Positions 4,106 to 56,057 of a stretch of DNA of 64,000 bases are shown in pieces. The notes beneath the pieces were generated by a model that saw nothing but the letters and a program-made list of their open reading frames with translations, ran no database searches and was not told where the DNA came from. Within the stretch, counting starts at the first letter, position 1; each line of letters opens with the position of its first letter. Position numbers and translations under genes: made by a program. Source of the DNA: Okeania sp. KiyG1. Lineage in GTDB: Bacteria; Cyanobacteriota; Cyanobacteriia; Cyanobacteriales; Microcoleaceae. The stretch lies in assembly GCF_014132355.1 (NCBI RefSeq), contig NZ_BLZO01000062.1, positions 1 through 64,000 of the forward strand, given 5' to 3'.

Positions 4106-6632
4106 TCAATTATTTAACTTTTTCCCACTCATAAATAAATTCACAAAATCATTGATTGTATTGCGGTAATCTCTCAAAGTTTTATCAACCCAATCTCGAT
4201 CATTACTATCTGCATAAATATGTACTAAGGGTTCTGCTGCATCCGGTAAAACTAATACCCAATTATCATTTTGATGATTAATAATCTTTACTCCATCAGT
4301 TAATTGTAATTTTTCTGGAGGATTAGTTTCTACTAAATACCTCATTAAAGCTCCTTTCACTTTCCAAGGACAACGTACTTTATAGGAACGATGAGTAACA
4401 ACAGGAATATCCGCACTGATTTGTCCTAAAGAGCGCTCTTGAATAGTCAACATTTCTATTACTTTAGCGATACAAAACATCGCATCAAAACCAGGATGCA
4501 ATTTAGGAAAAATAAATCCCATATCACCACTTCCACCTAGTACCACATTATGATTAATTTGACAAGCCTCCATCAATGCCGTAGGATTTGCTTTTGTCCG
4601 AATCACACGACTATCATGACGACGAGCAATTTGTTCTACTGCCGCAGAAGCATTTATTGGCACTACTACCGCACTGCGCGGATGAGCGGTTAACATCAAA
4701 TTGACCATTAGTGCAGTTAACATTTCACCACGAATAGCAGAACCAGTTTCATCTACTAATATTAATTGTTCACCATTTGCTGTTACTTGAACTCCTACAT
4801 TTGCTTGTAGAGCTTCTACCACCCGACCTAATTGATCTAATAAATTTTCTTTTTCTTCTTTCCCTAAAGAAGTCTCTTTTAAGCTCGCATTTAGAACTAC
4901 AGCATCACAACCAAATTTAGCTAATAATTGTGGTAATACTGCTCCAGAAACACCATAACAATAATCAATTACGACCTTAGATTTACTATAGCGAATTGCC
5001 TCAGAATTAAGCAGATTTTCAAAGCCTTTGCTATAAGCATCTAATACTTCATGGCGATAAACTACATTGCCAATTTCTGGAATTTGTACTCGCCGTAAAT
5101 CTTCTTTAAAATATGCTCCTTCTATCTTTTTTTCCTTAGCTTTAGAAAGATTAATTCCTTGAGAATCAAAGATTTCAATTAATATTTGGTCTGAGCGGTT
5201 AGGAGAAAGACGTACATGAACACCACCTACAACATTCATAGTTGGTAAGATTGTTCTGGCAATAGGAATTGCAGTAGATTCTAAATTTATTACGTTCACT
5301 CCTACTGACATTAAACCGGCAATTAAAGACCGAGAAACCATCCGAGATATACTGCGTTGGTCACGAGAAGCTGAGATTGTTGAACCAGGTTTTAAAATAG
5401 AACCATAAGCTGCTCCTAACTTCACCGCAAATTCTGGAGTAATATCTATATTTGCTAATCCTTGCACCCCTCGTTGTCCAAACAAATTTCTCTTAGCAGT
5501 TGTCCCCCAAATCAAATTAATATTCAGGGTAGCTCCAGATTCTACTTTTTTACTAGGCCATACTCTAACATTGGGACTAATTTGAGCCTCTTCTCCTACA
5601 GTAGATAATGAACCAACCACAGCACCTTCTAATACCTGAGCGCGACGGTCTATCCGCGCACCTCGACAAATTACACAAGCTCTTAAATTTGCATCCTCTC
5701 CCACCAATGCTCCATTCCAAATAATTGGACGCTTCACATCAGCATCTGCGCCAATTGTCACATTATCTCCAATCACACTACCTGCTTCAATCTGAACTCT
5801 TGGCCCAATTCTACAGTTATCTCCGATTAAAGCTGGTGTCTCAATTTTAGCTGTCCGGTCAATATAAGTATTTTCTCCTGTCCAAAGTCCGGGCGATCGC
5901 TCTTGATAAGCAAAATCAAGTTTTACTGTCTGTTGAAGTGCATCATATTGAGCTTCCCGATAGGCATCTAAATGTCCGACATCACACCAATAGCCTTCTG
6001 CTATATAGCCATACATTGGCTCGTTTTTATCTAACAATAAAGGAAATAATTCTTTAGAGAAATCACTTTCTTGATTATCTGGTAGATAGTTTAAAATTTC
6101 TGGTTCTAAAATGTAGGTTCCTGTATTAACAGTATCGGAAAATATTTCGCTGCTAGAAGGTTTTTCTAGAAATCTTTTTATTCTCTGTTTTTCATCTGTA
6201 ATTACCACTCCAAATTCTATAGGATTAGGTACGCGAGTTAGTACTAAAGTAGCTTTTGAATTATTTTTTTATGAAATTCTATAGCTGTAGTTAAATCAAA
6301 ATCTGTAATTGTATCTCCACTAATTACTAAGAAAGTTTCATCGAGAAGTTCAGCAATATTTTTTACACAACCAGCAGTTCCTAGAGGTTGTTCTTCTTCT
6401 ACAGCATAAGTCATTTGTACTCCAAATTGACTGCCATCTTGGAAATATTCACGCATTACATCAGGTAAGTAATGTAAAGTAGCAATAATCTCCCTAATTT
6501 GATGTTTTTTAATAAATTAATAATATGTTCGGCTATTGGGCGATTTAAAATTGGTACCATTGGTTTCGGAAGATCGCAGGTCAGTGGTCTGAGTCGTGTT
6601 CCGGAACCTCCTGCCATTAATACTGCACGCAT
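4106..6632 (-). CDS. Mannose-1-phosphate guanylyltransferase / phosphomutase-like fusion (two frameshifts as given)
   Basis: With two single-base repairs this is an 842-residue protein of the cyanobacterial NDP-sugar pyrophosphorylase-PMM fusion family. The ATG at 6632 has GGAGG upstream and begins [18 protein letters not shown], the nucleotide-binding signature. Domain order: nucleotidyltransferase (about 1-235), left-handed beta-helix hexapeptide repeats (about 245-370), then a phosphomannomutase-like region. The reading frame breaks at A6 (6505-6510, T on the + strand) and A7 (6264-6270); one extra A in each restores [11 protein letters not shown] and [18 protein letters not shown]. The mutase region lacks the canonical DGDGDR metal loop (GGSGDMGF instead), so mutase activity is doubtful. 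It probably supplies GDP-mannose or a related sugar for glycans. Confidence 0.85.
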
Positions 6633-6806
6633 AATTCCTCCTTTTTTGTTAATTTTATATTCATATCTATTAATTGATTAATACTAATTGACACTCTTTT
6701 TATATGATTGTGTCAGAACGCAAATAATTGGTCAAAATTCATTATTTCTTATTACCTTTTAAATACTATAATTAAGATTTTTTTATTGACTTTTAGCAAA
6801 TTTTTG

Positions 6807-7232
6807 GTAAGTATTTCCTGCGGAATGCGGAGCAAACAGCCATCAGCTCTCAATTCTTAGCGTTTCTCATTTATTGCGTTTGGAGGGTAAGCATTTCCTG
6901 GGGAATGCGGAGCAAACAGCTATTACCTGTCAGGTCTCAGCTCTCATGGGGGGGGTTTAAATGAATATAGACTTTAAAGCGGACTTTGGTAGTAAGTATA
7001 AATTCTGCCTCAATTAGTAAAGCTTTTATTTCAAACTAAAAGCAATAGCTGACGGTTAAATGTTTACTTTGGAGGAGGAATTAGGATTGAGTTTGAGCAA
7101 GAATTAAAAGTCTGGGTAAAAGCAAAAGCATCACTTAACTTTACCTATTTAGCTTCTTTAGCTTCATTTTCATTACTGAAGTTCACAGTTCCTCTGTAGG
7201 AGACTAGCTAACTGCTAATAGCGGAATGCTGA
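6807..7232. repeat. MITE-like element, GTAAGCATTTCC family (compound copy)
   Basis: The left arm is present twice (6807 and 6887: GTAAG(T/C)ATTTCCTG(C/G)GGAATGCGG, GCAAACAGC). The core (GTTTAAATGAATATAGACTT ... AAACTAAAAGCAATAGCT) matches, in the same or reverse orientation, the elements at 33787-34042 and 38048-38280. The right arm ends CTGCTAATAGCGGAATGCTGAC. No transposase is encoded. Confidence 0.7.
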
Positions 7233-7448
7233 CAATTTTTACTCGAAGCTTTCCTTCAAATCTTCCACTCCAAATCAATCAAACTCCAGGAATTATAATA
7301 AACTTTAGACATCGCAACAATTATCAAAAATTAAATTTTTTCACTGACTTTTTATCAACTTTTTATTCTCTATTCCTGATTTGCTAGTAGCTGTAAAGAA
7401 GTTTTGTTCAAATATCACCTAATTTTAATTCCATAATCATTAAGTATA

Positions 7449-7602
7449 TAGAACCCATTTGGGATCTATATAAGCATCTCCTCCACTCATAGGGAGTAGG
7501 CAGTAGGGACGCCCTTATGCAACGTCCGTACAGAGTAGGGGTAAAGAATTGATGAATAACAGTGCAATAATTGATTTGATTTTTGATTGTTGGAGATATC
7601 TA
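7449..7602. repeat. Dispersed repeat, inverted relative to 29341-29490
   Basis: Begins ATAGAACCCATTTGGGATCT, continues GCATCTCCTCCACTCATAGG and ends with ATTGATTTGATTTTTGATTG then TTGGAGATATCT. The reverse complement of these blocks, in the same order, lies at 29341-29490, and part recurs at 45960-46050. The remainder of the 6633-8102 spacer holds no convincing gene; 7781-7890 is another ACCGAAAAATT-family copy and 7917-7957 is a GATAACT microsatellite. Confidence 0.65.
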
Positions 7603-8102
7603 TCTATGTAATTAAATATCAATATTCTAAATTATTTGCCTAAAAACCCTACATTTGCAAAGATACCAAATGGCTTCTATAGGTCAAATTAATATAGAAA
7701 ATGATTGTTTAGAAAAAATAGAAGTTAGGCAATTTTTCCCACCTCGCCTGACACTTTGTATCCTGGTTTTATATTTTTTTACCGAAAAATTGTGGGTATG
7801 CGCCTCCCCTTTTAAGGGGATAAAAAGCGGTCGAGAGATGGATGGGTTACCTAATCATATCTAATCGACCAAGAGAAAAGATAATTCCGTATTTTCTTGC
7901 CTCCTTATTGCAGAGGTACTGATAACTGATAACTGATAACTGATAACTGATAACTGAAATGACACCTAACCTACTTACCTATATTACCTACTATTTGGTT
8001 ATAATAAATTGAGGAATATTAAACCTAAAGTCCAATTAAGATTAATTAAATCATTATATTTGGACTGTACCTAAAAAATTGACCTTTTAAGAGTTTTGTG
8101 CC

Positions 8103-8303
8103 ATGAGTACATTAATTGGCCTGTTATTACTGGTTGTATATGGAGGTGGAATCTGGAAGTTCTGGAATGGGTTTGAACAAACAAACTTTTCTAAGAACTT
8201 TCAGAATCGTTTGGTATTATCTATATTTTGGCCAGTTTTATTGATTGGTAACAAATCTTACCGTAAGAACTTTACAAAAGCTCTGAAAGGTTCTAAACGA
8301 TAG
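8103..8303 (+). CDS. Small membrane protein of unknown function
   Basis: A 66-residue protein with an N-terminal hydrophobic helix (about 3-20, LIGLLLLVVYGGGIWKFW), a second hydrophobic stretch (about 37-48, LVLSIFWPVLLIG) and a basic C-terminus. No family is recognised with certainty, though small proteins of this shape are common in cyanobacteria. The ATG follows a repeat-free leader and the stop lies 8 bases before the methyltransferase start, so the two are probably co-transcribed. Confidence 0.65.
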   Translation: MSTLIGLLLLVVYGGGIWKFWNGFEQTNFSKNFQNRLVLSIFWPVLLIGNKSYRKNFTKALKGSKR

Positions 8304-8311
8304 AGAAATAA

Positions 8312-9049: not shown

Positions 9050-9316
9050 ATGGTAGAGCAGAAAATAATTTTTGTATTTACTTAGTTATGATTAGTATAC
9101 TCAATTAAGAAAATTATCACCACGAAGCTTTTGTTAGTATTTAGAAATTAATGTTAGGAATTAGCAATCTAAATTAGTCGGTGTTAAAATTAATCCTAAC
9201 GGTTAAGGTAGAAGACAGAAAAGAAAAGTTTTTTGAACGATATGGAAAAAATAAAGGCATCTCATGGAATGCCTTTACCAAAGAATAATTACCTTTACTC
9301 TCTGTACTATTAACTA

Positions 9317-10045: not shown

Positions 10046-10279
10046 TTTGCTTCCGATACTACTTATTAATCAGCTAGTACTTGCAAGATTATGCAAGATT
10101 TAGTTTCACTAGAAGTAAAAATCAAAAAAATAAAGCATCGCACTATATTCTTCACCAAAAAAAGGTGACGAATTTACACATAGTACGAATACTTTTTACA
10201 AAAATTAATATTATTGATTTGGAAAATATAGAACTCACTATCATTGTTATTAATTATTAGGATAATTGAAATAACCAAC

Positions 10280-11731: not shown

Positions 11732-13101
11732 ATGAAGAATAAACCTTATGGATAGGTTTGATGAGTGGAGGAATAACTGCAATTGCAACCGCTATTGTCA
11801 CAATGGTTTATTCCCCAACTTTTCTAAACAAAACTCACCGGAATTATGCGGTCGCTTGTACGGCAGGTATTACCAGTTTTATCACAACGTTTAGCTTAGG
11901 TATTATAACTGCCCAAAAACTTCGTTTTTCAACTAATAGACTAGAGAATTGTCTAGAGGATATTTCTGAGGGAAAATATAATATTAGAATTCCTATTTAT
12001 GCTAATGACGAGCTACAAGATTTGACTAAAAATTTAATTCTATGGCTGACGTGATTTGTAATCTTCTAATTAATCTAAAAATTAGAGAAGAAAGGAGCGA
12101 ACAGGATAAAGAAAAATCGCTAGTCAAGTTATAAAATTGTTGGATAAAGTAGATACTGCTGCTCATGGTCAAATTTATGTAAAACTCAAAGTTAGATGCG
12201 AAGAATTGGGAGTAATATCTTATTGTATTAATATGACTCTCAACAACTTTATAAAACTTGTTAAAAAGTCAATTCTGATAGTCAAGAAATTCTGACTCTA
12301 ATCGCAACAGATAGTCAAACTATTTTTCAAAATTTATCCCGAGAAAGTAAGTTGCAAGCAGAAGAAATAGATTCTTTTCTCACATCTTTAGAAGCGATAG
12401 TTGATACCTTTTATCAAAGAGCATATAAAGCATGGGAAGCCGAACAAGTTTATCAAGAAATTAGTAATTATGCTTCCACAAGTTACCAGTCAATAGGCAA
12501 TATTTTTCAAGAAATTATGGCAGCATATATGTTGATTTCAGAAATTCATCATAAAGTCAAAAGATTGACTGAGTATAATTATGATTTAAATAAAATCCAA
12601 GCTTTAGTCGAACAAATGAATATTCACAGTAAATTTTTGTTACTAAATACTGCTATTTTTGCTTATAGGAAAACCAGCAACGAAGACCTACTAAAAATAG
12701 CAATAAAATTGCAAGAAATGGCAAATAATTGGGATTTAATCAAGAAAAGTTTAGAACACTTTCAACACAATGTTCAAAGCTTAAATCTGACTATTTATGA
12801 GAATAATATAGTTGTAGAAGAATTCCCACAGCAAAAATTAGGAGAAGAAGTTAAGCAAGGACTAACTAAAATTGTTCAGAATATCTATAAATTTAATAAC
12901 TATATAGATAATGTTGCATCTTTAGGAGAAAATCAGACCGATAATCTACAAAAATCACAGAATTTTTACAAATTATCCACAAAAAAATATCGAAAGAAGT
13001 CAAGTGACAAAAAATTATATGATTCTTCACAAAAAATTATGAATATTACAGAGAGTTTAGCAGAATCAGTTAAACATTTTACTTTAGAAAAAACAGAATA
13101 A
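11732..13101 (+). CDS. HAMP-domain, MCP-like membrane protein (3-4 frameshifts as given)
   Basis: As written the gene is broken, but one added A at 12028-12032, 12112-12116 and 12263-12267 gives one continuous protein. A further added A at 11741-11743 would start it at the ATG 11732 (MKNKTLWIGLMSGG), for about 457 residues. It has two N-terminal membrane helices, a HAMP domain (NIRIPIYANDELQDLTKKFNSMADVI), a second HAMP-like block (LLDKVDTAAHG ... LGVISYCINMTLNN) and a long coiled coil. The distal part resembles a chemoreceptor signalling helix (LVEQMNIHSKFLLLNTAIFAYR) but lacks the conserved E-A-R-A-G-E tip that binds CheA/CheW. It may be a decoy or structural relative of a pilus-motility receptor. 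Confidence 0.7.
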
Positions 13102-14449: not shown

Positions 14450-17400
14450 GCAAAAATTTCACTTTCTATACCTATATCTATATTGATAGAGAAATTTTCA
14501 TTGCCAGAAGTAAAGAAAAAGCGACGATTTTTCCTCAGAGCATAAATTTCCAACTCAGACAAAAGATAAATAGAAAAAATTCACCACCTCCCACAACCAA
14601 AAATCAGACATTGCCATACTTATCTATCTATTTATAGAGAAATTTTTACTGCCAGAGGTAAAGGAAAGCCAAGGATTTTTCCTCAGAACAGAAATTCCCC
14701 ACTCAGACAAAAAATAAATGGATAAAAATCTCTCATCTCCCACAACCAAAAATCAGACATTGCCATACCCATCTATATATTTATCGGAAATTTTCACTGC
14801 CAGAGATAAAGGAAAGCCAAGGATTTTTCCTCAGAGCAGAAATTCCCGACTCCGACAAAAGACAAATGGAGAAAAATCTCTCATCTCCCACAGCCAAAAT
14901 TAAAGAAAAAATCGTCATTTTTCCTCAGAACAGAAATTCCCGACTCAGACAAAAGATAAATAGAGAAAAATCTCTCATCTCCCATAACCAAAAATCAGAC
15001 ATTGCCAAACCTATATCTATATTTATTGGAAACTTTCACTGCCAAAATTAAAGAAAAATCGTCATTTTTCCTCAGAGCAGAAATTCCCGACTCCGACAAA
15101 AGATAAATAGAGAAAAATCTCTCATCTCCCATAACCAAAAATCAGACATTGCCAAACCTATATCTATATTTATTGGAAACTTTCACTGCCAAAATTAAAG
15201 AAAAAATCGTCATTTTTCCTCAGAACAGAAATTCCCGACTCAGACAAAAGATAAATAGAGAAAAATCTCTCATCTCCCATAACCAAAAATCAGACATTGC
15301 CAAACCTATATCTATATTTATTGGAAACTTTCACTGCCAAAATTAAAGAAAAAATCGTCATTTTTCCTCAGAACAGAAATTCCCGACTCCGACAAAAGAT
15401 AAATAGAGAAAAATCTCTCATCTCCCATAACCAAAAATCAGACATTGCCAAACCTATATCTATATTTATTGGAAACTTTCACTGCCAAAATTAAAGAAAA
15501 AATCGTCATTTTTCCTCAGAACAGAAATTCCCGACTCCGACAAAAGATAAATAGAGAAAAATCTCTCATCTCCCATAACCAAAAATCAGACATTGCCAAA
15601 CCTATATCTATATTTATTGGAAACTTTCACTGCCAAAATTAAAGAAAAAATCGTCATTTTTCCTCAGAACAGAAATTCCCGACTCCGACAAAAGATAAAT
15701 AGAGAAAAATCTCTCATCTCCCATAACCAAAAATCAGACATTGCCAAACCTATATCTATATTTATTGGAAACTTTCACTGCCAAAATTAAAGAAAAAATC
15801 GTCATTTTTCCTCAGAACAGAAATTCCCGACTCCGACAAAAGATAAATAGAGAAAAATCTCTCATCTCCCATAACCAAAAATCAGACATTGCCAAACCTA
15901 TATCTATATTTATTGGAAACTTTCACTGCCAAAATTAAAGAAAAAATCGTCATTTTTCCTCAGAACAGAAATTCCCGACTCCGACAAAAGATAAATAGAG
16001 AAAAATCTCTCATCTCCCATAACCAAAAATCAGACATTGCCAAACCTATATCTATATTTATTGGAAACTTTCACTGCCAAAATTAAAGAAAAAATCGTCA
16101 TTTTTCCTCAGAACAGAAATTCCCGACTCCGACAAAAGATAAATAGAGAAAAATCTCTCATCTCCCATAACCAAAAATCAGACATTGCCAAACCTATATC
16201 TATATTTATTGGAAACTTTCACTGCCAAAATTAAAGAAAAAATCGTCATTTTTCCTCAGAACAGAAATTCCCGACTCCGACAAAAGATAAATAGAGAAAA
16301 ATCTCTCATCTCCCATAACCAAAAATCAGACATTGCCAAACCTATATCTATATTTATTGGAAACTTTCACTGCCAAAATTAAAGAAAAAATCGTCATTTT
16401 TCCTCAGAACAGAAATTCCCGACTCCGACAAAAGATAAATAGAGAAAAATCTCTCATCTCCCATAACCAAAAATCAGACATTGCCAAACCTATATCTATA
16501 TTTATTGGAAACTTTCACTGCCAAAATTAAAGAAAAAATCGTCATTTTTCCTCAGAACAGAAATTCCCGACTCCGACAAAAGATAAATAGAGAAAAATCT
16601 CTCATCTCCCATAACCAAAAATCAGACATTGCCAAACCTATATCTATATTTATTGGAAACTTTCACTGCCAAAATTAAAGAAAAAATCGTCATTTTTCCT
16701 CAGAACAGAAATTCCCGACTCCGACAAAAGATAAATAGAGAAAAATCTCTCATCTCCCATAACCAAAAATCAGACATTGCCAAACCTATATCTATATTTA
16801 TTGGAAACTTTCACTGCCAAAATTAAAGAAAAAATCGTCATTTTTCCTCAGAACAGAAATTCCCGACTCCGACAAAAGATAAATAGAGAAAAATCTCTCA
16901 TCTCCCATAACCAAAAATCAGACATTGCCAAACCTATATCTATATTTATTGGAAACTTTCACTGCCAAAATTAAAGAAAAAATCGTCATTTTTCCTCAGA
17001 ACAGAAATTCCCGACTCCGACAAAAGATAAATAGAGAAAAATCTCTCATCTCCCATAACCAAAAATCAGACATTGCCAAACCTATATCTATATTTATTGG
17101 AAACTTTCACTGCCAAAATTAAAGAAAAAATCGTCATTTTTCCTCAGAACAGAAATTCCCGACTCCGACAAAAGATAAATAGAGAAAAATCTCTCATCTC
17201 CCACAAGCAAAAATCAGACATTGCCAAACCTATATCTATATTTATTGGAAACTTTCACTGCCAAAATTAAAGAAAAATCGTCATTTTTCCTCAGAACAGA
17301 AATTCCCGACTCCGACAAAAGATAAATAGAGAAAAATCTCTCATCTCCCACAAGCAAAAATCAGACATTGCCAAACCTATATCTATATTTATTGGAAACT

Positions 17401-17805
17401 TTCACTGCCAAAATTAAAGAAAAATCGTCATTTTTCCTCAGAACAGAAATTCCCGACTCCGACAAAAGATAAATAGAGAAAAATCTCTCATCTCCCACAG
17501 CCAAAATTAAAGAAAAAATCGTCATTTTTCCTCAGAACAGAAATTCCCGACTCAGACAAAAGATAAATAGAGAAAAATCTCTCATCTCCCACAAGCAAAA
17601 ATCAGACATTGCCAAACCTATATCTATATTTATTGGAAACTTTCACTGCCAAAATTAAAGAAAAAATCGTCATTTTTCCTCAGAACAGAAATTCCCGACT
17701 CCGACAAAAGATAAATAGAGAAAAATCTCTCATCTCCCACAAGCAAAAATCAGACATTGCCAAACCTATATCTATATATTTATAGAGAAATTTTTACTGC
17801 TACCT
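14450..17805. repeat. Tandem array of 148-bp repeats, about 23 units
   Basis: A landmark CAGACATTGCC recurs at 14605, 14754, 14996, 15143, then every 148 bases from 15291 to 17215 (14 copies), then 17362, 17603 and 17751. The 14 central copies look almost identical; the outer copies are diverged (AGGTAAAGGAAAGCC instead of AATTAAAGAAAAAATC). Two copies, one near each end, are 94-bp short units lacking the CAGACATTGCC block. Each unit holds two small hairpins (GAAAAAT-CGTC-ATTTTTC and AGAGA-AAAA-TCTCT). Because 148 is not a multiple of 3, each unit shows overlapping 65-codon frames in rotating phase; these are not genes. There are no unique spacers, so it is not a CRISPR. Confidence 0.95.
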
Positions 17806-17877
17806 TTATTCAAAGTAAAAATTTTAGATAGAGACAAGCGATCGCTCATCTCAATTCACAAAACTTTCCCAAATTCA

Positions 17878-20800
17878 TCACACCAGAAAATCTAGAGAAA
17901 AACTCATTATTTTCCAAGGTGAAATTTCACAACTTCCACTCTCAAAATCAACAGAAGATTCAGCAACATCTCGCTCCAACAAATCAACAACTTTTCCTAC
18001 TGCCAAACCAGCATCACTTTCCAACTTCAAAATTGCCTCTCTTCCCAAACATTCATAACACCTTAAAACCCAATATTGATTATTCTCCGACCGTTTCAAC
18101 GCCATCAAAATTAAATTATCAGTTTCCCAACCCAAGAAACGATAAATTTGTGGCAACCTTCCACCAGATTTTTCCGAACTAATCCACGGCATTACCTTAA
18201 CAAGCAAAGGCAGATTTAACTCATAACCCCGTTGCACAGTACCAGCACTTTCCCAACTTCCCAAATGAGGATAAATAGCATAAGTAAATTCGTGAATTCC
18301 CACATCAGCTTCCTCATCAGGCCAAGTCGAACCTCTTAATAAAGTTAAACGTAATTCATCCGACTTTGCATCATATCCATACTTACAATCATTCAGCAAA
18401 CTTACCCCATAATTATCATCACTAATATCCGCCCAACGTAAAGCAGGAACTTCCCATTTTGCCTTATCTCTTTCTGTCTGAAACTTAGTCATTCTCTTAA
18501 TTGCCCCACAAGGAATTTCATAAGTAACAAAATCCGTATCTATATTTATAGGAAAAGCCACCTTAACTAAAGTATGACTTTCCTGCCAATTTACCCAACA
18601 TTTAATTTTTAGCAGCGGAGAACCAAACTCCAGAATATAATCCTGACAAAATTCAGACTTTCCTATTTTTCTAATAACTCGCAGACAACTTCTTAAATCT
18701 CCCCGTTCCATCCACCCAATATCTATTAATTTTGCAGGAGCTAAAAGATATTCTTGATAATTTGGATCAATATTCCAAGCATCCCAATATTGACCCTCAT
18801 CTTGAAAAACTTGCAATTCATTCCCCTTCCCTTTTCCCAAAACTTCCCGTTCATTAACCTTGTCAAAAATACTCTCCAAATTTCCCATTTTCCCCTCCAC
18901 CTTTACCCGTAATAAATCATTCTCTAAAAGCCATCCTTCACCATCTAAACTAACAGTATTGACAAACTCAATTTTTTTCGCTATCCTTTCTGTAGAATAG
19001 GGAATAGGTGTGCTCATATATAGTCTTTTGTCCAAATCTGAAAACCCACAACATAACCAAAACACTCGATAACCAACCCCAGGCACATCAGAAGCAACAA
19101 ACAACAAATCCTGAACCGAGACCTGAGAACTAACTAATTTTCCCTCATTGTCATAAACTAGCCAGTCATTTCCATCGCTTTGCATACCAGCAGAATAATT
19201 ATCCATATCCAAACCCTCTCCCTGCTCCATCTCTTGATGCGCCTTCCCTTTCATCTGTCGCCGACCTGGGGTCGCACCGCCACTCCCTACCCCCCAACAA
19301 CCCTTTTTTTCCGGAGGCGCTGGCAAAGCAACCGAAACCAATTCCGAACGTTGCCAATTCAAAGAATTAAAAACAATAACCGGAAAAAACATCCCACCTT
19401 CACCAGAATCAAACGAAAAAGGCCGACAAAAATCAATCTGAGAAGCGATCGCCTCCATAGCCTCATCCAAAATTTCCAACCCTAACCGTTCAGACTCCCT
19501 CCAACTACCATTAGCATCCACATAAACATCAGAAATAGCCGAACCAGGCAAAATATCATGAAACTGATTAAACAAAACCCCCTTCCAAGCAACCTCCAAA
19601 TCACTCTTCCGGTAAAAAGCTCCAGTCACAACCGAAGCAAAAACAGCAAACAACTCCGCCTCATACAACAAACCCTCACAACAACGGTTCCATCTTTTTT
19701 GATCCGCATGAGTCGTATAACAACCCCGATGAAACTCCAAATAAAGTTCATCCCGCCAAACAGGATAATCATCAGAACATTCCCTCGCCAACTCCACCAA
19801 AAAACTCTCAGCAGTCGTAAACTCCAACAAAGGAAAAAAACCAGACTCCCGCCATCTTTTCCCTACCTCCAACATATCCCTAGTCGGACCTCCACCATGG
19901 TCTCCCACCCCAGGCAACCACAAAACATTTTTCCTGCCAGTTTTCACCAACCATTCACAAGCAAACCTTCCCATCCTCACAACATCAATACCCTCCCCTA
20001 TCGGCGGTAACATCAAACTAAAAATCCGACTTTTATCCAGACCTTCCCACCAAAAAACCTCAAAAGGAAACTCCATCAAATCATTCCAACGCAACTTTTG
20101 AGTCACAAAATATTCCATACCCCCACCCTGAAGAATTTGTGGAAGTTGCCAACAAAAACCAAAACTATCAGGCAACCAAGCTACAAGAGAAAATCTGCCA
20201 AACTTTTCCCAAAAATAACCTTGACCATATAAAACCTGCCGAACAATTGATTCACCACTCACCATATTTAACTCTGGTTCCACCCACAAACCCCCAACAA
20301 ACTCCCACTTTCCCAACTCAACTTGTCCTTTAATTCTATTAAATAAATCTGGTCGATTTATCTCTATCCATTCATATAGTGCCGGAGTCGAATGACAGAA
20401 AATAAGTTCCGGAAAATCTTGTTGTAAATTCAATACAGACTCAAAAGTTCGTTCCGCCACTTCCCAAGTTTCTTTTACATCCCATAACCAAGCTAAATCT
20501 AAATGAGCATGACCCAATAATTTCAGTTTTAAACTATTAATATACTTCTCAGAAATTTTGGCTATTTCAGCATTGACTTTTAACAGACACTTTTCAAATT
20601 TTTCCCTCTCTCTAACTGAATGCCAATCTATCAAATTCACCGCATCTTTTATTCTGTCTATATCTAAGTCATTCTCAGTCTCAACCTTTGCCAAATATTC
20701 AACCAAAATTTCTAACTCGTCTGCCAAAAAACCAGGGTCTAGCTGATAATTATCCACATTTTCATACACACACCAAGACTTTACCAAAGCTCCCCAGTCA

Positions 20801-21225
20801 TGTACTGGACTTACCAACTTAATCCCAATTAAAAAAGTCTCCCCAACCATTGCCTTTCGACTCAGTAAAATTCGACTCGAACAGTCAAATAAATCTCCTG
20901 TTTGTACTAATTTTCCGTTCACATAAATTTCCGCAGATTCAGCCCACCAAGTTAAACCTAATTTTAAAGATAAATCAGCTAAAAAATAGTCGTTTAAGTG
21001 TGAGGGAATTATCAATTTTTGCCCTAACCATAAAATCTGTTTACCTTTTGCCCAGGCAATATGTTTTCTCTCATTTGTTACAGCTAACTCCCAACTGTCT
21101 AAATTTTCAAGTGCGGTTAAAGGTATATCTCTTTGTCGGTATCGCCATTGTCTTTGAATATCTACTTGGGTTAGTTTTCGTAGTTTGTCTATAGTTGTGG
21201 AAATTTCTTTGATAAGAAGTTGCAT
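17878..21225 (-). CDS. Alpha-mannosidase, glycoside hydrolase family 38
   Basis: An 1115-residue cytosolic retaining alpha-mannosidase. The zinc-binding HAHLDLAWLW motif places H239 and D243; the catalytic nucleophile is D353 in AWLPDSFGFCWQLPQIL. GDHGGGPTRDML (about 450) is another family block. Order: N-terminal beta domain (about 1-230), catalytic barrel (about 232-520), helical bundle, and C-terminal beta domains. It likely removes mannose from storage or cell-envelope glycans, or recycles extracellular mannosides. No signal peptide. The frame is intact over its full length. Its 3' end borders the 148-bp array and its 5' side borders a second tandem array. Confidence 0.95.
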   Translation of the reverse strand: MQLLIKEISTTIDKLRKLTQVDIQRQWRYRQRDIPLTALENLDSWELAVTNERKHIAWAKGKQILWLGQKLIIPSHLNDYFLADLSLKLGLTWWAESAEIYVNGKLVQTGDLFDCSSRILLSRKAMVGETFLIGIKLVSPVHDWGALVKSWCVYENVDNYQLDPGFLADELEILVEYLAKVETENDLDIDRIKDAVNLIDWHSVREREKFEKCLLKVNAEIAKISEKYINSLKLKLLGHAHLDLAWLWDVKETWEVAERTFESVLNLQQDFPELIFCHSTPALYEWIEINRPDLFNRIKGQVELGKWEFVGGLWVEPELNMVSGESIVRQVLYGQGYFWEKFGRFSLVAWLPDSFGFCWQLPQILQGGGMEYFVTQKLRWNDLMEFPFEVFWWEGLDKSRIFSLMLPPIGEGIDVVRMGRFACEWLVKTGRKNVLWLPGVGDHGGGPTRDMLEVGKRWRESGFFPLLEFTTAESFLVELARECSDDYPVWRDELYLEFHRGCYTTHADQKRWNRCCEGLLYEAELFAVFASVVTGAFYRKSDLEVAWKGVLFNQFHDILPGSAISDVYVDANGSWRESERLGLEILDEAMEAIASQIDFCRPFSFDSGEGGMFFPVIVFNSLNWQRSELVSVALPAPPEKKGCWGVGSGGATPGRRQMKGKAHQEMEQGEGLDMDNYSAGMQSDGNDWLVYDNEGKLVSSQVSVQDLLFVASDVPGVGYRVFWLCCGFSDLDKRLYMSTPIPYSTERIAKKIEFVNTVSLDGEGWLLENDLLRVKVEGKMGNLESIFDKVNEREVLGKGKGNELQVFQDEGQYWDAWNIDPNYQEYLLAPAKLIDIGWMERGDLRSCLRVIRKIGKSEFCQDYILEFGSPLLKIKCWVNWQESHTLVKVAFPINIDTDFVTYEIPCGAIKRMTKFQTERDKAKWEVPALRWADISDDNYGVSLLNDCKYGYDAKSDELRLTLLRGSTWPDEEADVGIHEFTYAIYPHLGSWESAGTVQRGYELNLPLLVKVMPWISSEKSGGRLPQIYRFLGWETDNLILMALKRSENNQYWVLRCYECLGREAILKLESDAGLAVGKVVDLLERDVAESSVDFESGSCEISPWKIMSFSLDFLV

Positions 21226-25079: not shown

Positions 25080-25525
25080 GTGTTTGGCACTCGATTTTTA
25101 TCTCTGACGAAAACCCGCCTAGGGAATCCTAAACTCAATGTGTTGAATCGGAACATTAATGCTGCATGGAGACAATTCCTAACTATTTTAACTCTCAAAG
25201 CCGGAAATGCTGGAGGTGAAAACTATAGTAGTGACCCCCAAAAATACCAGCCAAGACTGCTCCAACTGTGGGAAAAAGTCGATAAAGAATTAAACATACA
25301 AACTCATTCTTGCCCGCATTGCGGTATTGTAATAGACCGCGACTTGTTTGCGTTTGCGCAGCATCCCGTAGGGAAGCATAACAAACGGAAATGCAGCGAT
25401 AAATATAAAAAATAGGGCGACAGGGGATTCCGTCCTTAAAGCACGCGCTTGCCCGATGCAATGGCAGGGCTACGAAACGAGAGAGCTTACACTATAGCGC
25501 CAGCAAGCGTGTGGGAGTATGTCAC
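25080..25525 (+). pseudogene. TnpB (IS200/IS605 RNA-guided nuclease) relic with right end
   Basis: Only the C-terminal third of TnpB survives: LNVLNRNINAAWRQFLTILT, then, in a second frame, TPKNTSQDCSNCGKK, then THSCPHCGIVIDRDL, the paired CxxC zinc ribbon and the last RuvC aspartate. One extra G near 25216 and one missing A in A5 (25273-25277) break the frame. A 26-base dispersed repeat (TTTGCGCAGCATCCCGTAGG) is inserted at about 25351-25376 after DRDL. The right end (GTGTGGGAGTATGTCAC) closes at 25525. No TnpA is present. Confidence 0.8.
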
Positions 25526-34124: not shown

Positions 34125-35045
34125 GAGCTTTGTCGCAAACATTTGCAAATAAAGTCAAATATTTCCAATCCCAAAATCTACCAGTCATTTTGGTTGATAC
34201 CAAGAAAAAAGAATTGATTGGAGACTTTAAAACTCTGGTAGTGAGTGGTGTGTTCATGGACAACCAATAGAAGTACGAATGCACGACTTTGCTGACCCGA
34301 AATTAGGAAAAGCAATTCCCTATGGAATTTATGACCTAACTTTGAATCAAGGATGGGTAAATGTTGGTATTAATCATGACACTGCTGAGTTTGCAGTGGA
34401 ATCAATTCGCCATTGGTGGTACTCCATGGGCAAACAACTCTATCCTCATAGTGAGCAGATAATGATTACAGCCGACTGTGGTAGCAGTAATAGTTATTGC
34501 TCCCGACTATGGAAGTTAAAGCTATAAGAATTGGCTAACGAGATGAATCAAACTATTGAGGGCTTGCTGATTAAATCTAAAAGCATTGACAGGTAAAGGT
34601 TTTAGCTTTTTTTTAGCTGTAAGGGGGTGCAACTTTTTAAGCTTGAGCGACCAAAAAAGCTAGGATAAAAGGCAGAGTAATTGCAGAAAAATCAAGGGAT
34701 AAAATATCCGACTACCTCCTCTAAATTTCCCATTCCTCCTTACTCCTACCTCATACCAAAAGACTTCCATAAGCAAACCCTATTTATGTGTGTCATTTTC
34801 CACCAGGCACAAGTATAGCGCTGTGCGCAGGCAACAGCTCATCTGGGGGAATAAATTGCCCATAATATAAGACTTTTAGCTATTTGGCCCCTCATGCAAT
34901 TTGTAAATATACCAGCGCTCATTGTTATAAATGGAATAAAATTGAACATCGCTTGTTTGCCACATCACCCAAAACTGGCGTGATAGACCTTTGACTAACT
35001 TGCAGGTAGTAATTAATTTAATTAGCAATACTACTGCCGCACAAG
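34125..35045 (+). pseudogene. ISAzo13-type transposase relic
   Basis: Fragments in order match this transposase family: NLPVILVDTKKKELIGDFK, then in another frame EWCVHGQPIEVRMHDFADP, IPYGIYDLTLNQGWVNVGIN, DTAEFAVESIRHWWYSMGKQ, SEQIMITADCGSSN, VCHFPPGTS, and KWNKIEHRLF. Frame breaks: a missing A in A4 (34229-34232), a CAA-to-TAA stop near 34525, and later decay. About 115 bases are inserted between CHFPPGTS (34790-34812) and KWNKIEHR (about 34930). The N-terminal half is gone. It is non-functional. Confidence 0.8.
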
Positions 35046-45810: not shown

Positions 45811-45829
45811 AGATGGTGGTTTAATAGTC

Positions 45830-47140: not shown

Positions 47141-50100
47141 GTGTTGATACTTAATCGGTATTGTATTATGTGGGAAGTATTAATAACTCTATTTTCATCG
47201 AAGCAATATATGCCTCATGGTCAGTGTTACCTGTGGCAGTCTCAGCTTATCTGGTTACATTTTCTCAGCGATCTTTTGATTGGTGTGGCTTACTACTCCA
47301 TACCTATTACACTAATATACTTTCTCCGCCAGCGAACAGATGTCCCATTTAAACATATATTTTTCCTGTTTGGAGCTTTTATTATTTCCTGTGGCACAGG
47401 TCACCTGATAGAAACTTGGACTATTTGGCATCCAGCATACTGGATATCTGGGCTAATCAAAGCCTTTACTGGTTTAATATCAGTATATACTGCAATTGTT
47501 CTAGTACAAATTATTCCTGTAGCATTGGCCTTACCAAGTCCCGGTGAACTAGAAGCCATTAATAAACAACTAAAAACAGAAGTAAGTCAAAGAGTAAAAG
47601 CGGAAAATATTCTCAAAAACTTGATTGTTGGTACAGCTTCACTTACAGGAGAAAAATTCTTTTCTGCTCTAGTCCAACATTTAGCAAAAGCTTTGAATGT
47701 TAGACACGCATTTGTATCACAACTTTCAGAAGATAGTTTAGAAGAACTCCAAACAGTAGCATTTTTTGCTCAAGAAAACTTAGCAGAAAATATTAAGTAT
47801 AAAATCGAAGGAACTCCTTGTGAACCTGTCATTAGAGAGGCACAACTCAAGTATTATCCTGAGAAGGTGCAGAAAATTTTTCCGACAGCATCTGGGTTAG
47901 CTGCAATGGAAGCAGTTTGTTATTTAGGAGTACCATTAATCAATGAACAAGAACAAGTAATAGGAGCATTATGTATTAATAGTAATCAAACTTTAGATAA
48001 CCCGGAAAATGCTATAGCCATTATGCAAGTATTTGCTGCTAGAGCAACAGCAGAATTACAACGTAAAAAAGCTGAATTTAAGCTCCATCAAGCTTATGAT
48101 AAGTTAGAAAAAAGAGTTGAATCTGCAACTCAAGACCTGCAACAACGTACTTCAGAATTAGTTAAAATAAACGCTGCTCTGGCAACAGAAATAAGTGAAA
48201 GAAGAACGGCAGAATTAGCTTTAAAAAATAGTGAAAATTTTTTAAAACAAACACAATCAGGTTTATTAAGATTAGCAAAAAACCAAAATTTATACAAAGG
48301 AAATCTTAGTGCAGCTCTAGCCGAAATAACTAAATTAGGCAGCCATACCCTGAATGTAGAAAGAGCGAGTGTGTGGTTTTATAATGACGATAAATCAGAA
48401 ATTAAATGTGCTGATTTATATGAAAAGAGTCTCAATAAACATAGTCAAGGAATAATTATTTCTAAAGATAACTATCCTCAATACTTTGAAGCTATAGAAA
48501 TAGAAAAATTAATCGCTGCCTCAGATGCCCATCAAGACTGTAGAACTAAAGAATTTAGTGATTCCTATCTGACTCCACTTTCAATTTATTCAACGTTAGA
48601 TTCTCCTATTCATCTACAGGGGAAAATTGTCGGAGTTATATGTTTAGAGCAAACTCAAACTAAAAGATATTGGACGATAGAAGAACAAAATTTTGCTAGT
48701 TATATAGCATATATGACAGCTCTAGCAATAGAATCACACGACCGTAAACAAGCAGAAGCAGCATTAAGCTCAAGTCAACGTTTAGTACAAAAAATTACCC
48801 ATACCTGTCCAAGTCTTTTGTATATATACGACCTATTTGAACAGAAAAATGCCTATGTTAATCGTTCAATTCAAGATATGCTTGGTTATACAGAATCAGA
48901 AGTTGAAGAAATGGGGGAAATTTTCTTAAAAAATCTGATGCACCCCGATGATTTTGCGAGACTGCCTCAACACTTTCAAGAAATTATGATGGGAGCGGAT
49001 GGCGATATCTTTGAATTTGAATATCGAATGAGATGCCACAATGGGAAATGGATATGGCTATTTAGTAGAGAGACCATTTTTAGCAGAACAGATTCAGGAG
49101 CAGTAAGACAAATTATTGGTGCAGCTACCGATATTACAGGAAATAAACTAGCAGAAGCTAAACTACAAGCTAGTCAAAAGTTTTTGGAGCGAGTTATTAA
49201 CTCAGTAGCTGACCCTATATTTGTTAAAGACCGCCAGCACCGTTGGCAAATTGTTAACAATGCTTTTTGTCAGATGGTTGGAGCTTCGCAAAAAGAGTTG
49301 CTTGGCAAATCTGAGTACGAATTTTTCCAAAAATCTGAAGCAGATGTTTTTTGGAGAAATGACAACCTTGTCTTTGAGAATGGAATAGAACAGGAAAGTG
49401 AAACAAAATTAACAAATATTGCTGGTAAAGTTCATTATCTATCAACAAAAAAAGTTGCCACTACTGATGTTTTTGGTAATCAAGTATTGGTTGGTGTAAT
49501 TCGAGATATCACAGAACAAAAACAAATTGAGTTAACCCTCCGAAAAACAGCAGAGCGAGAGTCTGCTCTAGCTACAGTAATTCAGAAAATGCACCAGTCT
49601 ATAGATTTAGAAACAATCTTCAGCGCTACAACTGAAGCACTACGACAGGTAGTTAAAGGCGATCGCTGTGTTGTCTATCAATTCTACCCTGACTGGAGTG
49701 GGGAATTTGTGGCTGAGTCGGTAGACCAGAAATGGACTTCTGTATTAGCCTCACAAAAATGCTCCTTAGTATCTGAAGTAGCAGTGGATAAAAATGAATG
49801 TGTAGTTAAAACTTTTGCTAGTGTTAATCAGACAATACAATATGCCGATACTTATCTACAAGATACTCAAGGTGGTGTTTATAGCCAAGGAGTAAAATAT
49901 ACATCTGTAGCAGATATTTACAAATCTGGATTTGATTCATGTTACCTAGAATTTTTAGAGCAATTTCAAGTAAGAGCTTATATTACTGTTCCCATATTTT
50001 GTGGCACTCAGTTATGGGGACTATTAGCAATTTACCAAAATACAGGTCCGCGCTCATGGCAGGAATCAGAAATTAGTCTAGTAGTTCAAATAGGCACTCA

Positions 50101-51648
50101 GTTAGGAGTAGCTGTCCAGCAAGCAGAACTACTTACCTATACTCAAAGACAAGCAGCAGAATTGAAACAGGCAAAAGAAATTGCTGATGCAGCAAACCAA
50201 GCGAAAAGTGAATTTCTGGCTAATATGAGCCATGAATTACGCACACCTCTAAATGCTATTCTTGGTTTTACTCAACTAATGAGTCGGGATGAAGATTTAT
50301 CTTTCGAGCGTCAAAAATATTTAGAAATTATTAGTCAGAGTGGGGAACATTTACTAGCATTAATTAATGATATTCTTGAAATGTCAAAAATAGAGTCGGG
50401 ACGAATAGAACTCAATGTAAATAATTTTAATCTTCACTGTCTATTAGATGGCCTAGAAAAAATGTTACAGTTAAAAGCTCAATTAAAAGGTTTAAAGTTA
50501 AAATTTGAGCGTTCTCCAACAATTCCTGAATGGATTAAAACTGATGAAAATAAATTACGTCAAGTATTAATTAATCTAATTGGTAATGCCATTAAATTCA
50601 CAAAAAAAGGAGGCATTACAGTTAATATTTCCCTAGTCACTCAAGTGAAAAATGAAAAGCTAGAAACAAACTCCTCTGTAGCTCAGATTATTTTTTACAT
50701 CACAGATACTGGAAAGGGTATTGCCTCCAATGAACTAAATAAATTATTTAAACCTTTTAGTCAAACCTTAAGTGGTTATGAATCTAAAGAAGGGACAGGT
50801 TTGGGTTTAGCAATTAGTCAAAAATTTGTACAATTAATGAAGGGAGAAATAACTGTAGATAGTATGGTGGGTAAAGGAAGTACATTTGCTTTTGATATTC
50901 AAGCAGAAATAGTAGAAGCATCTGTAGCAAAAGAAAATCAATATTCAGAAGAAATAATTATTGGTTTAGACTTTGACCAACTTCAATATCGTATTTTAAT
51001 TGCGGAGGATAGAAATACTAACCGTTTGTTATTAGTTAAATTACTTACATCTATAGGCTTTAATGTTCAAGAAGCTGAGAATGGTAAACAAGCCATAGAA
51101 ATTTGGCAGAGTTGGCAACCTCACTTAATCTTAATGGATATGCGAATGCCAGTAATGAATGGCTATGAAGCAACTACGAATATTAGAAGTCAATTAAAAG
51201 GTCAATCAACTAAAATTATTGCTCTTACTGCTAGTGCATTTGAAGAAGACAAACGTTCAATTTTATCAGTAGGATGTGATGATTTTGTCAGAAAGCCATT
51301 TCAAGAATCAGAATTATTAAGAAAAATTGGCAAACATTTAGAAGCAAAATATATATATGCAACAAAAAAATTAACAACGAAAATATTAATCAAAATATCA
51401 ATCAAAATTCCTCAGAAAAAACAATAAATTATTCTGAAATAACTGTCAAGATTGCCAAGATGCCTTTAGAGTGGACTGAAAAATTAAACCATTTTGCATC
51501 TATGGGTTCTGATGATGAAATTTTCCAACTACTCAAACAAGTTCCTCAAGAAAATACAGCCTTAATTACAGCCTTAACTGACTTAGTTGAGAACTTTAGA
51601 TTTGATATAATTATAGATTTAACCAAGCATATAGAAAGCTCAAAATAA
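47141..51648 (+). CDS. Ethylene-receptor-like hybrid histidine kinase with CBCR-type GAF (one late frameshift)
   Basis: Membrane sensor kinase, about 1500 residues. The listed frame starts GTG 47141; ATG 47168 is at least as likely. Numbering from GTG: three membrane helices (about 38-125) match plant ETR1's ethylene-binding domain, with all seven known binding residues present (D44, Y51, I54, P55, I81, C84, H88). GAF 1 (about 165-305), GAF 2 (380-532), PAS (555-665), PAS (680-795), GAF 3 (812-998) with [17 protein letters not shown] and Cys934, the bilin-attachment position of cyanobacteriochromes. HisKA has H1031 ([12 protein letters not shown]), then HATPase, then REC with D1333. At A7 (51364-51370) one missing A ends the protein early; one more A reads on to 51648 through a short helical tail ([20 protein letters not shown]). 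Confidence 0.9.
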
Positions 51649-51835
51649 TTAAAAAAGCGGTCAGCGGTCAGCAGTCAGCAGTCAGCAGTAAACTTTTAGA
51701 AGGGGATGAGCAACCCCTCCGCGCACCTTCCAGTTTATAGAAACCGGGGATGTTTTACCAGAGCTGCTAAAAGCTGTTAACGAAGTTCCTCTGCAAGAAG
51801 CTAGCTTAATGCTAAAAGCTAATAGGTAGTTAACA

Positions 51836-53654
51836 ATGGAAAATTCCAAACAACAAGATAAAATACTAAATATGGACAAAACTCCAGCAGATATCCTAAT
51901 TGTTGATGATACACCAGAAAATTTACGCCTTTTATCTCGAATGCTAACAAAGCAAGGGTATAATGTTCGTAAGGCAATTAGTGGACAAATGGCACTGAGG
52001 GCAGTAAACACTGCACCCCCCAATCTCATTTTGCTAGATATTATGATGCCACTGGTAGATGGGTATGAAGTTTGTGAACAGTTAAAAAATAATCCTCAGA
52101 CCTCTGAAATTCCGATCATTTTTCTCAGCGCGCTTGATGATGTAATTGATAAAGTTAAAGCATTTAAAGTAGGAGGGGTAGATTATATTACTAAACCATT
52201 TCACCTAGAAGAAGTTTTAATCCGAATTCAAAATCAATTATCACTACAAGCTGCAGAAAAAGAAATTCACTTACTTAATACTCAACTAGAAATAAGAGTG
52301 CAAGAGCGTACAAAGCAGCTAGAGGAAGCTAATGCTAAATTACTTGAAATGGCGCTTCACGATAGTTTGACAGGATTAGCAAATCGGGTTTTATTCATGG
52401 ACCGTCTCAAACAAGCTCTTGATTATACTAAAGTAAATTCAGAATATAAGTTTGCCGTGATGTTTCTAGATTGCGATCGCTTCAAAGTAGTTAATGATTC
52501 TCTTGGCCATCTAGTAGGAGATGAATTACTCATAGCAATTTCTGATCGCTTACAAAAGGTACTTAAACCAGAAGATACCCTAGCTAGACTAGGAGGAGAT
52601 GAATTTGGTATTCTGCAAATCAATATTCAAAATATAGATGCTGCTATCAACTTAGCAAATCAAATATTTGAACTTCTATCTTATCCATTTAAGCTGCTCA
52701 GACATGAGGTTTTTATTAATGCTAGTATTGGCATTACTGTAGGCAATAGTAACTATGAAAAACCAGAGTATTTATTAAGAGATGCAGATACAGCAATGTA
52801 TCAAGCTAAAGCATCAGGGAAAGCAAGGTATCATACCTTCAGTCCAGAAATGCATAATTCTGCTCTCCAACTTTTGCAGTTAGAAACAGACCTACGCCGA
52901 GCAATTAATCAACAAGAATTTATCGTTTATTATCAACCAATTATTGAATTTAATACAGGTAAAATAACAGGTTTTGAAGCACTGGTACGTTGGTATCATC
53001 CTCAACGTGGTATAGTTTCACCAGGATTATTTATTCCGATAGCAGAAGAAACAGGTTTAATTAACCCCCTTGGCAATTTAGTAATGCGGGAGGCGTGTCA
53101 TCAACTCTACAAATGGCAACAGCAAAAAATTACCGATTATCCTCTAACAATGAGTATTAATTTATCAGTAAGACAGTTTGCCCAACCAAATTTGATTGAA
53201 CAAGTCGATAAAATTCTGGCAGAAACACAAGTAAATCCTCAAAATATTAAATTAGAAATTACAGAAAGTGCTATAATGGAAAATACAAAAACTGCTGATA
53301 TTTTACTTAAAAACTTAGAGAAAGATATATAAAACTGTGTATAGATGATTTTGGTACTGGTTATTCTTCACTGAGTTACTTACATTTATTTCCTGTAGAT
53401 ACTCTCAAAATAGACCGCTCTTTTATCTGGTCAATTGATGATAAATCGACTGATTTAGGACTTGTTCCAGCAATTATTAGTATTGCTAAAACTATGAGAA
53501 TGAATGTAATTGCTGAAGGTATAGAAACACCTATACAATTCAAACAATTAAAAAATTAAAATGTGACTTTGGTCAAGGATTTTTATTTTCTCAACCTCTA
53601 GAAGCAGAAAAAATTACTCAATTACTGAAGACAAATCCCCAGTGGCAGTGGTAA
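51836..53654 (+). CDS. REC-GGDEF-EAL cyclic-di-GMP enzyme (two frameshifts as given)
   Basis: About 605 residues once repaired. REC domain about 18-135 with phospho-acceptor D68 (LILLDIMMP). GGDEF domain about 165-335 with the intact RLGGDEF at 251-257. EAL domain from about 345, with E381-A-L (GFEALVRW), INLS and EITES before the break, and DDFGTGYSSL, LKIDRSF and AEGIE after it. The frame breaks near 53332 (an extra TA in GATATATAAAACTG, or one missing base) and at A6 53550-53555 (one missing A). It could make and degrade c-di-GMP. It follows the hybrid kinase by 187 bases on the same strand, so it is a good candidate output partner. Confidence 0.85.
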
Positions 53655-53964
53655 TATCAATTCTGGTGGAATTGGACATAAAAAAATATCCAATCATTAT
53701 AACTACGCTCATCCAACATGAATATCTTTCCTACTGAGTTATGACTCCTAAAAACTACTAATCTATAACTGTTTAACTGGATTTGATATAATACCGTTTC
53801 ACGGAATTCAAAAGTCAAAAGTCATGCATTATGATTTTATAGCTCAAAACTTTGATGCTTCAGTAATTTCAGCAAATTATTCGACATCTAAAGTTTGAAA
53901 CTATTTGTAACATTTTTTATCGCTCGAATCAATACTTTTCCCACTATTCCCTGTTCCCTGTTTT
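53655..53964. other. Spacer after the EAL gene
   Basis: Contains a half MITE (CTATAACTGTTTAACTGGAT, TTGATATAAT, about 53762-53792) and AT-rich DNA shared with 56588-56700 (CATGCATTAAGATTTTAT...ATTTAAAGTTTGAAACTATT, here diverged). No gene. Confidence 0.5.
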
Positions 53965-56057
53965 CTATTCCCTGCTATAGTATTGATTAACTTGCCACAA
54001 ACGAACAACACCGTAGCGACCACTAGATGCCAAAAAGTTGCCATTTGGAGAAAACGCAATACTGTTAACAATATTCGTATGTCCAAATAAAGTTTTTAAG
54101 GACTTACCAGTACTAACATCCCATAAACGAACAGTTTGGTCATCACTTCCAGATGCCAATATTTTACCATCAGCAGAAAAAGTAACTCGATTAATTATAC
54201 TCTGATGACCTATTAAAAGTTTGCTCATTTTTCCAGTGGCAATATTCCACAACCGTATAGTTTTCTCTCCACCCGCAGATGCTAATAATTTGCTATCTGG
54301 GGAAAAGGCAACTGTTTTAACATACATTGTATGTCCTGAGAAAATTTTCAGGGGTTTACCGTTGCTAGTATTCCATAACCGGACTGTTTTATCAGCACTT
54401 CCAGATGCCAACATTTTACCATCTTTGGAAAAAGCAATACTCCAGACTAAATCATCATGGCCTGCGAGCAGTGCTAACTTCCTACCAGTAAGTACATCCC
54501 ATAATATTAATGTTTCTTCCCGACTACCAGATGCTAATAACTTGCCACTGGCAGAAAAAGCTACACTTTTAACTACATCTGTATGTCCTGTCAAAACTCG
54601 CGTTTGCTTGCCAGTAATAGCATTCCATAAACGCACGTTAGTATCATCACTAGCAGATGCTAATAACTTACCATCTGGGGAAAAAGCCAAACTACCGATT
54701 AAACTTTCATGTCCTTTGAGAATGCGTAGTTGTTCCCCAGAATTAGTATTCCATAAGCGGATATTTTTATCCCAACTTCCGGATGCTAAGGTTTTGCCGT
54801 CGGGAGAGAAAGCAATACTTTCTACTCTATTCATAAACCCTTGAATTAAGTGTTCTAATTCCCCAGTGTTAACATTCCACAAACGCACAGTTTCATCTCC
54901 ACTGCCTGATATTAATAAACTGCCATCGGGGGAGAAAGCGACACTGTTAACAAAACTTGTATGGCCAGTAATTAGTTGTAACTGTTTTCCTGTAGTCACA
55001 TCCCACAAGCGCAAATTGTTTTCATCTCCTGCGGATACTAATAATTTGCTATCTGGAGAAAAAGCTGCATCATATATTTTACAACTATGACCCTGTAAAA
55101 CTTGTATTTGTTTACCAGAAGCAACATCCCATAAGCGTATAGTTTCATCCCAACTGCCTGATGCTAATATTTTGCCATCTGGAGAAAAGGCAACCATTGT
55201 CACCCGACCTTCATGCCCTGACAATAGTCGTATTTGTTTGCCAGTGGCAACATCCCACAAACGTATAGTTTCATCCCAACTACCCGATGCTAATATTTTG
55301 CCATCTGGTGAGAAAGCAACTGTTTCGACTCGCTTAATATTTTCTTGGAGAACTTGTATTTGTTTGCCAGTGGCAACATCCCATAAGCGTATAGTTTCAT
55401 CCCAACTACCGGATGCTAATATTTTGCCATCTGGTGAGAAAGCAACATTGTTAATTGGAGAAATATGTCCTTTTAATTCTGCTAATAATTGACCTGTGCG
55501 TAAATTCCATAAATATATATTTGGATCTGCTCCTACAGCTAGCAAGTTATGACGAGAATTAATCGCACCACACTTAGCAGGGCAGTCAATTTCCCATAAT
55601 ATATTTTCACTCAAACCTATCTGAAATAAAGTAGCACCACCAGCACTACAGACAAGAATTAAATTATTTTTAAGGGTATTATATCTGTGATAAATCCACG
55701 TCCTAAACGTTTTTTCATCCCTTGATTAACTAATTCTGGTAAAGCAACAGAGCGAGGATATTGTAATAATTCTTCTTTTTGTTTTTCTGTGGCTTTTTCC
55801 CAGAGTAAATTGTGTGCTGTCCACTGGACTCTTCCTGTTTCTGTTTGAATAATTGGGGCAATAAGTTTGATGCCTTCTCTACCAAATTTAAGTGCTTCTC
55901 TCACAGCAGCTATTCTTTGTTCTTGGGGGTTATTATTGGTAAGTTTAGTTTTGAGAAGCTGCAATTTTTTCAGAGTTTCTGTATCCTTTGGAGTAGATGT
56001 AGATTGTCCAGTAGGGATTAAATTATCAAAAGACTTATTTTGTGAGTTATTATTCAT
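53965..56057 (-). CDS. WD40-repeat protein, two-propeller type (one frameshift as given)
   Basis: About 697 residues after one repair. The N-terminal helical region (about 1-130: LQLLKTKLTNNNPQEQRIAA, WTAHNLLWEKATEKQKEELL) reads as a short HEAT/ARM-like module. Then 13 clear WD40 blades plus a first one (LILVCSAGGATLFQIGLSEN) make about 14, fitting two seven-bladed propellers. The frame breaks at A5 55667-55671 (T on the + strand), exactly at the start of blade 1; one more A joins both parts. Three successive blades share SPDGKILASGSWDETIRLWD almost identically, a sign of recent internal duplication. Acts presumably as a scaffold; partners unknown. Confidence 0.88.

Follow-up and report, generated by a model that had tools for sequence, protein, structure and literature searches.

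Some homopolymer runs in the draft genome of Okeania sp. KiyG1 are shorter than the corresponding runs of related genomes. The loss is largely one-directional and shows a length threshold, and it extends over genic and intergenic sequence, core genes included. Judged from sequence comparison, these losses are very probably base-calling errors, that is, homopolymer under-calling, left behind in an incompletely polished nanopore draft, and not a trait of the organism. The cell's own DNA would then carry the longer runs. The analysis started from a stretch of 64,000 nucleotides (here, the window), in which an earlier note had reported ten losses of a single A on the coding strand. Matches to Okeania records accord with the genus of the window.

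Nanopore reads of the period in which KiyG1 was sequenced under-called homopolymers from a length of about six bases upward. The window belongs to a nanopore-built assembly (GridION, Flye, Pilon; PMC7660993). According to that paper, DNA from single cells was amplified with the REPLI-g kit and read both on a GridION nanopore instrument (1.13 Gbp) and by Illumina sequencing (four libraries, 116 to 145 Mbp). Assembly with Flye was followed by polishing with Pilon, for which the read set is not spelled out, and the resulting genome comprises 198 contigs and 10,982,302 bp at a completeness of 92.74% (PMC7660993). For the genome as analyzed here, completeness was 92.36%, compared with rounded values of 96 to 99% in five relatives. 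In a separate count, there were 30 tRNA matches in the KiyG1 genome versus 39 to 46 in three relatives; sequence may also be absent from the draft.

Run lengths at the ten sites of the window

Eight of the ten reported losses held up when the sites were aligned to relatives, the window being one base shorter than every aligned relative; the other two, in transposase relics, did not (Table 1). At 6264, all 63 aligned records were one base longer than the window, and at 6505 all 67 were; these records came from Okeania and other cyanobacteria, with entries present under two names counted once. The same difference of one base was found against all four relatives' genomes (G002 to G005) at 12028, 12112, 12263, 51364, and 53550, and against both aligned genomes (G001 and G002) at 55667. 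At 12263, 51364, and 53550, the run is interrupted in some relatives, although its total length is still the longer one; the description of a run minus one A is thus true for the remaining relatives only. For 53550, among the alignments shown, the longer run was free of interruption in G002 only.

Table 1. Features of the window in which losses had been reported
Feature	Position	Strand	Remark
Sugar-nucleotide transferase / phosphomutase fusion gene	4106..6632	-	Family matches of intact relative
HAMP-type gene (name from initial annotation)	11732..13101	+	Intact in four relatives
Transposase relic (initial annotation)	25080..25415	+	Copies compared near 25273
Transposase-like relic (initial annotation)	34130..34527	+	One paralogue compared
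Hybrid histidine kinase	47141..51427	+	Kinase family matches of intact relative
EAL gene (name from initial annotation)	51836..53650	+	End approximate, equal to extent of match in a relative
WD40-type gene, two pieces	53965..56057 (53965-55614 + 55659-56057)	-	Repeat-propeller matches

The confirmed differences alter the reading of several genes. Two of them (6264-6270 and 6505-6510) split the fusion gene, which is intact in a relative as an ORF of 842 amino acids (L163). The histidine kinase has an altered frame near its C terminus, at 51364-51370. In the EAL gene, the open frame stops at 53332, and one base is absent at 53550-53555. The site in the WD40-type gene (55667-55671) is crossed by a 691-amino-acid ORF in a relative (L166).

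The HAMP-type gene, which had no NCBIfam match at an E value of 1e-10, carries seven single-base losses, instead of the three listed earlier, relative to each of four relatives (at about 11748, 12028, 12112, 12263, 12950, 12981, and 13009). Those at about 12950, 12981, and 13009 sum to three bases, so the downstream frame is unchanged. The first, at about 11748, is a T on the coding strand. It contradicts the earlier statement that T, G, or C was never lost, as do further T and C losses in the wider sample described below. Across the eight confirmed sites and the additional losses of this gene, run lengths ranged from five to seven. We also considered that the gene might be a real, decayed pseudogene and rejected this: alignment to the four relatives revealed zero substitution stops, and the ratio of nonsynonymous to synonymous changes (N/S) was no higher than among the intact relatives.

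The two remaining sites probably involve bases other than A. Near 25273, the three closest of the seven copies shown have GGGG in front of an identical run of five A, which suggests that the missing base is not an A. Three other copies read GGTG here, and in the last one AGG precedes six A, which is compatible with a lost A; over a wider span, there was no net difference from one copy. Near 34229, the single match among the loci compared, a paralogue in the same genome, reads AAGAA where the window reads AAAA, so that, judged by this one paralogue, the absent base is probably a G.

Other features of the window were recorded along the way. An intergenic repeat at 6886-7053 has about 40 copies listed across the same genome, mostly 77 to 91% identical, and two more dispersed repeats (about 56289-56500 and 53789-53918) are common to KiyG1 and other Okeania genomes. 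GC skew is strong (-0.46) at positions 16001-20000, a stretch that covers part of a 1,115-amino-acid ORF on the minus strand (17878-21225).

Run lengths in a wider sample of the genome

We surveyed run lengths in 1,052,175 bases of the KiyG1 genome, including the window, together with 1,013,261 bases of G004, 526,494 bases of G005, and small pieces of G002 and G003. The sample was centered on tRNA genes and their neighborhoods and is not random. The stretches that aligned to G004 amounted to about 412 kb of the 1.05 Mb, with an identity of 92.8%. Alignments were left out if they were shorter than 300 bases, less than 86% identical, or repeated a stretch already covered (400 bases and 88% in earlier counts). 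Only cleanly flanked runs were counted; those with a differing flanking base, or interrupted in the relative, were left out. Runs were defined as coding when they lay within an ORF of a relative, with ORFs of 100 amino acids or more called mechanically.

Of 598 coding A/T runs of at least six bases in the roughly 1.05 Mb, 43 were shorter in KiyG1 than in its relatives and 5 were longer. Against G004 alone, 37 were short and 5 long. Among coding A/T runs of five bases, by comparison, 1 of 1,297 was shorter (A5, 0/773; T5, 1/524). The rate of loss climbed with run length, from 15/256 (A6) through 8/82 (A7) to 11/30 (A8) for A, and with 6/176 (T6), 1/44 (T7), and 2/8 (T8) for T, such that 13 of 38 coding A/T runs of length eight were shorter. 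For G/C runs of at least five bases, 6 were short and 2 long of 177.

A control comparison of G005 with G004 behaved differently. Coding A/T runs of at least six bases differed in 0 of 189 cases, and of 63 noncoding runs, 7 were shorter and 6 longer, an even split. Since the control pair lacks coding differences while KiyG1 loses bases, the coding losses are particular to the KiyG1 assembly and mostly one-directional. The excess over chance that the earlier note had perceived is thus borne out by 43 short against 5 long runs and a clean control pair. The pattern of losses is real, though it is not purely one of A.

Shortening was commoner in noncoding than in coding A/T runs of at least six bases (48/263 versus 43/598; P = 3e-6), and 10 noncoding runs were longer. 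Selection on real losses would produce this pattern, which thus speaks against under-calling. The net excess of shortening in coding versus noncoding runs was 4.2% versus 7.5% at six bases, 5.6% versus 21.4% at seven, and 34.2% versus 31.0% at eight. This gap between coding and noncoding runs is partly ordinary divergence and longer runs, with the gap at length seven remaining. We rejected the idea that repeats, through failed short-read mapping, lie behind the extra noncoding losses: multi-copy runs were shortened in 10 of 76 cases versus 38 of 187 for single-copy runs, with copy number judged inside the 1.05-Mb sample only.

The rate of loss in the window (13/84) did not differ from that elsewhere (78/777; P = 0.13). 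Uneven polishing predicts that losses cluster; those within 1 kb of each other formed 35 pairs against 16 expected when the window was included, and 16 against 13 without it. Because clustering was significant only with the window, we do not claim that unpolished patches occur genome-wide, and we set this candidate aside. Isolated one-base indels in runs shorter than four bases also leaned toward loss, with 27 missing versus 11 extra (2 versus 7 in the control pair). This excess could reflect either general read error or real divergence.

Genes affected and tests for gene decay

The 46 coding losses in the wider sample (34 A, 10 T, and 2 C) were spread over 38 ORFs of relatives, which correspond to 36 loci, as the HAMP-type gene is counted three times among the 38. 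A family search covering ten of these 38 ORFs identified core genes. In the gene for ribosomal protein L10, the frame changes 55% of the way along, and this is its only frame indel. That of the B12-dependent ribonucleotide reductase changes near codon 58, where a run of C lies, and no further gap is present in the first 900 bases. Isochorismate synthase is shifted at 51% of its length; in histidyl-tRNA synthetase (by two bases) and class II fructose-bisphosphate aldolase, the shift comes a few codons before the end. Open frames were found in KiyG1 for mutS and rpoC2, so not every core gene is affected. Under-calling should be indifferent to gene function and coding strand. Core genes were hit, and A did not differ significantly from T outside the window, but noncoding runs were hit more than coding ones.

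We also compared whole genes, leaving out those shorter than 150 amino acids and those whose alignment covered under 90% of the gene. Frame-changing indels were present in KiyG1 relative to 57 of 237 genes of G004 and 27 of 115 genes of G005. In the control comparison of G004 and G005, carried out in both directions, they were present in 10 of 97 and 8 of 99 genes. For genes that had lost one base in a long run, N/S came to 0.83 upstream of the break and 0.63 downstream of it, compared with 0.57 in genes without frame indels. Gene decay in general was rejected on these grounds, N/S below the break not exceeding that upstream.

Two of the genes encountered have features of their own. In one relative, the B12-dependent ribonucleotide reductase is an ORF of 1,916 amino acids with intein matches (L178:11802-17549). 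The mutL gene of KiyG1 (L271:1473; G000:C38, about 44172) has a frameshift near codon 482, with one base missing compared with G004 and G005, and its open frame spans 496 amino acids versus 585 to 598 in four relatives.

Base-calling error, slippage, or a mutator lineage

It is conceivable, though in our judgment very improbable, that the A-tracts have really contracted and are tolerated because part of the product regains its frame, either by slippage of RNA polymerase or by -1 ribosomal frameshifting on A-runs. Such rescue has been proposed for Blochmannia and Buchnera. There is precedent in B. vafer, for which PMC3017870 describes eight frameshifted genes in homopolymeric tracts. The finding that N/S is not raised downstream of the breaks is in keeping with restored frames. 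So is the excess of A over T among coding runs of the window (10/44 versus 0/15; P = 0.052) and of the whole sample with the window (34/369 versus 9/229; P = 0.015). However, the latter comparison weakened to P = 0.085 when stratified by length, and outside the window A (24/325) and T (9/214) did not differ significantly (P = 0.15; length-stratified P = 0.48). The earlier proposal of a strand asymmetry confined to A is not supported outside the window, and two of its ten examples are probably not A. Its accompanying caution that A-runs may outnumber T-runs proved apt: of runs with at least six bases, coding strands hold 369 of A versus 229 of T, and of those with at least eight, 31 versus 9. 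Since A-runs on coding strands are more numerous and longer, the asymmetry is largely a matter of supply, plus the choice of window. At least one of the coding T cases (L206:16702-17250) lies in what may be an ORF antisense to a ribosomal gene.

Other observations also speak against slippage. Bases other than A are missing as well, such as the T at about 11748 and the C in the run of the ribonucleotide reductase; seven losses fall within the single HAMP-type gene; and intergenic runs are shortened too. The runs at the sites in question are five to seven bases long, where about nine or more would be expected. According to PMC1088944, a large share of genomes show evident selection against slippage for tracts of nine, and PMC3017870 describes many coding poly(A) tracts of nine or more in Blochmannia genomes and proposes slippage-corrected frameshifts there. 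The doubt raised earlier that the tracts are too short for efficient slippage is sound, given that they are shorter than those of Blochmannia. In both cases, short indels lie in A/T tracts of genes that are otherwise conserved, some of them serving information transfer. The Blochmannia case differs in that it concerns eight genes (PMC3017870); that genome was sequenced by Illumina, is extremely biased toward AT, and has 153 coding poly(A) tracts of at least nine, whereas in KiyG1 many tracts of six to eight bases are involved, in one nanopore-based draft only. Still less probable is a recent defect in mismatch repair, by which KiyG1 would be a mutator gaining real homopolymer indels, with mutL shortened C-terminally. 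The truncated mutL speaks for it, and a mutator under selection would likewise give more noncoding than coding hits. But a repair defect is expected to yield gains as well as losses, and gains were scarce in coding (5/598) and noncoding (10/263) runs, with 0/189 and 6/63 in the control. Moreover, a living lineage would have to carry broken genes for L10 and the ribonucleotide reductase. A mutator acting through mutS was rejected, as the frame of that gene is open. The lesion in mutL, too, consists of a single lost base, like so many in this assembly; it may have caused real instability or be a further error, and we favor the latter because gains are scarce. The least probable reading combines the two, making KiyG1 a real mutL-deficient lineage in which homopolymers, coding-strand A-tracts above all, have contracted in many genes, even in L10, with frames restored by slippage or -1 frameshifting at A-runs. 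Were the contractions true, core genes of a free-living cyanobacterium would be decoded with the help of corrective slippage, which would be remarkable.

Homopolymer under-calling, which the earlier note had named as the simplest cause, fits the sequencing method, the largely one-directional loss, the six-base threshold, the clean control pair, and the broken core genes. Nanopore reads of amplified single-cell DNA would under-call homopolymers, and a Flye draft would inherit the short runs. Polishing with Pilon was presumably done with short reads of the same cells, and uneven coverage of the amplified DNA may have left part of the errors in place. The frames would then appear broken because bases are absent from the file, not from the cell. 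There are good descriptions of homopolymer-length errors that outlast polishing and make genes look fragmented when they are not (PMC8812927, PMC12007338, PMC8011154), and the long-read bacterial assemblies of the Polypolish, Homopolish, and Kastor papers resemble KiyG1 in their false frameshifts, split genes, and residual errors after polishing. Relative to those assemblies, polishing of KiyG1 may be patchier, with amplified single-cell DNA as its source. Pseudogene counts or claims of slippage built on the KiyG1 draft would mislead.
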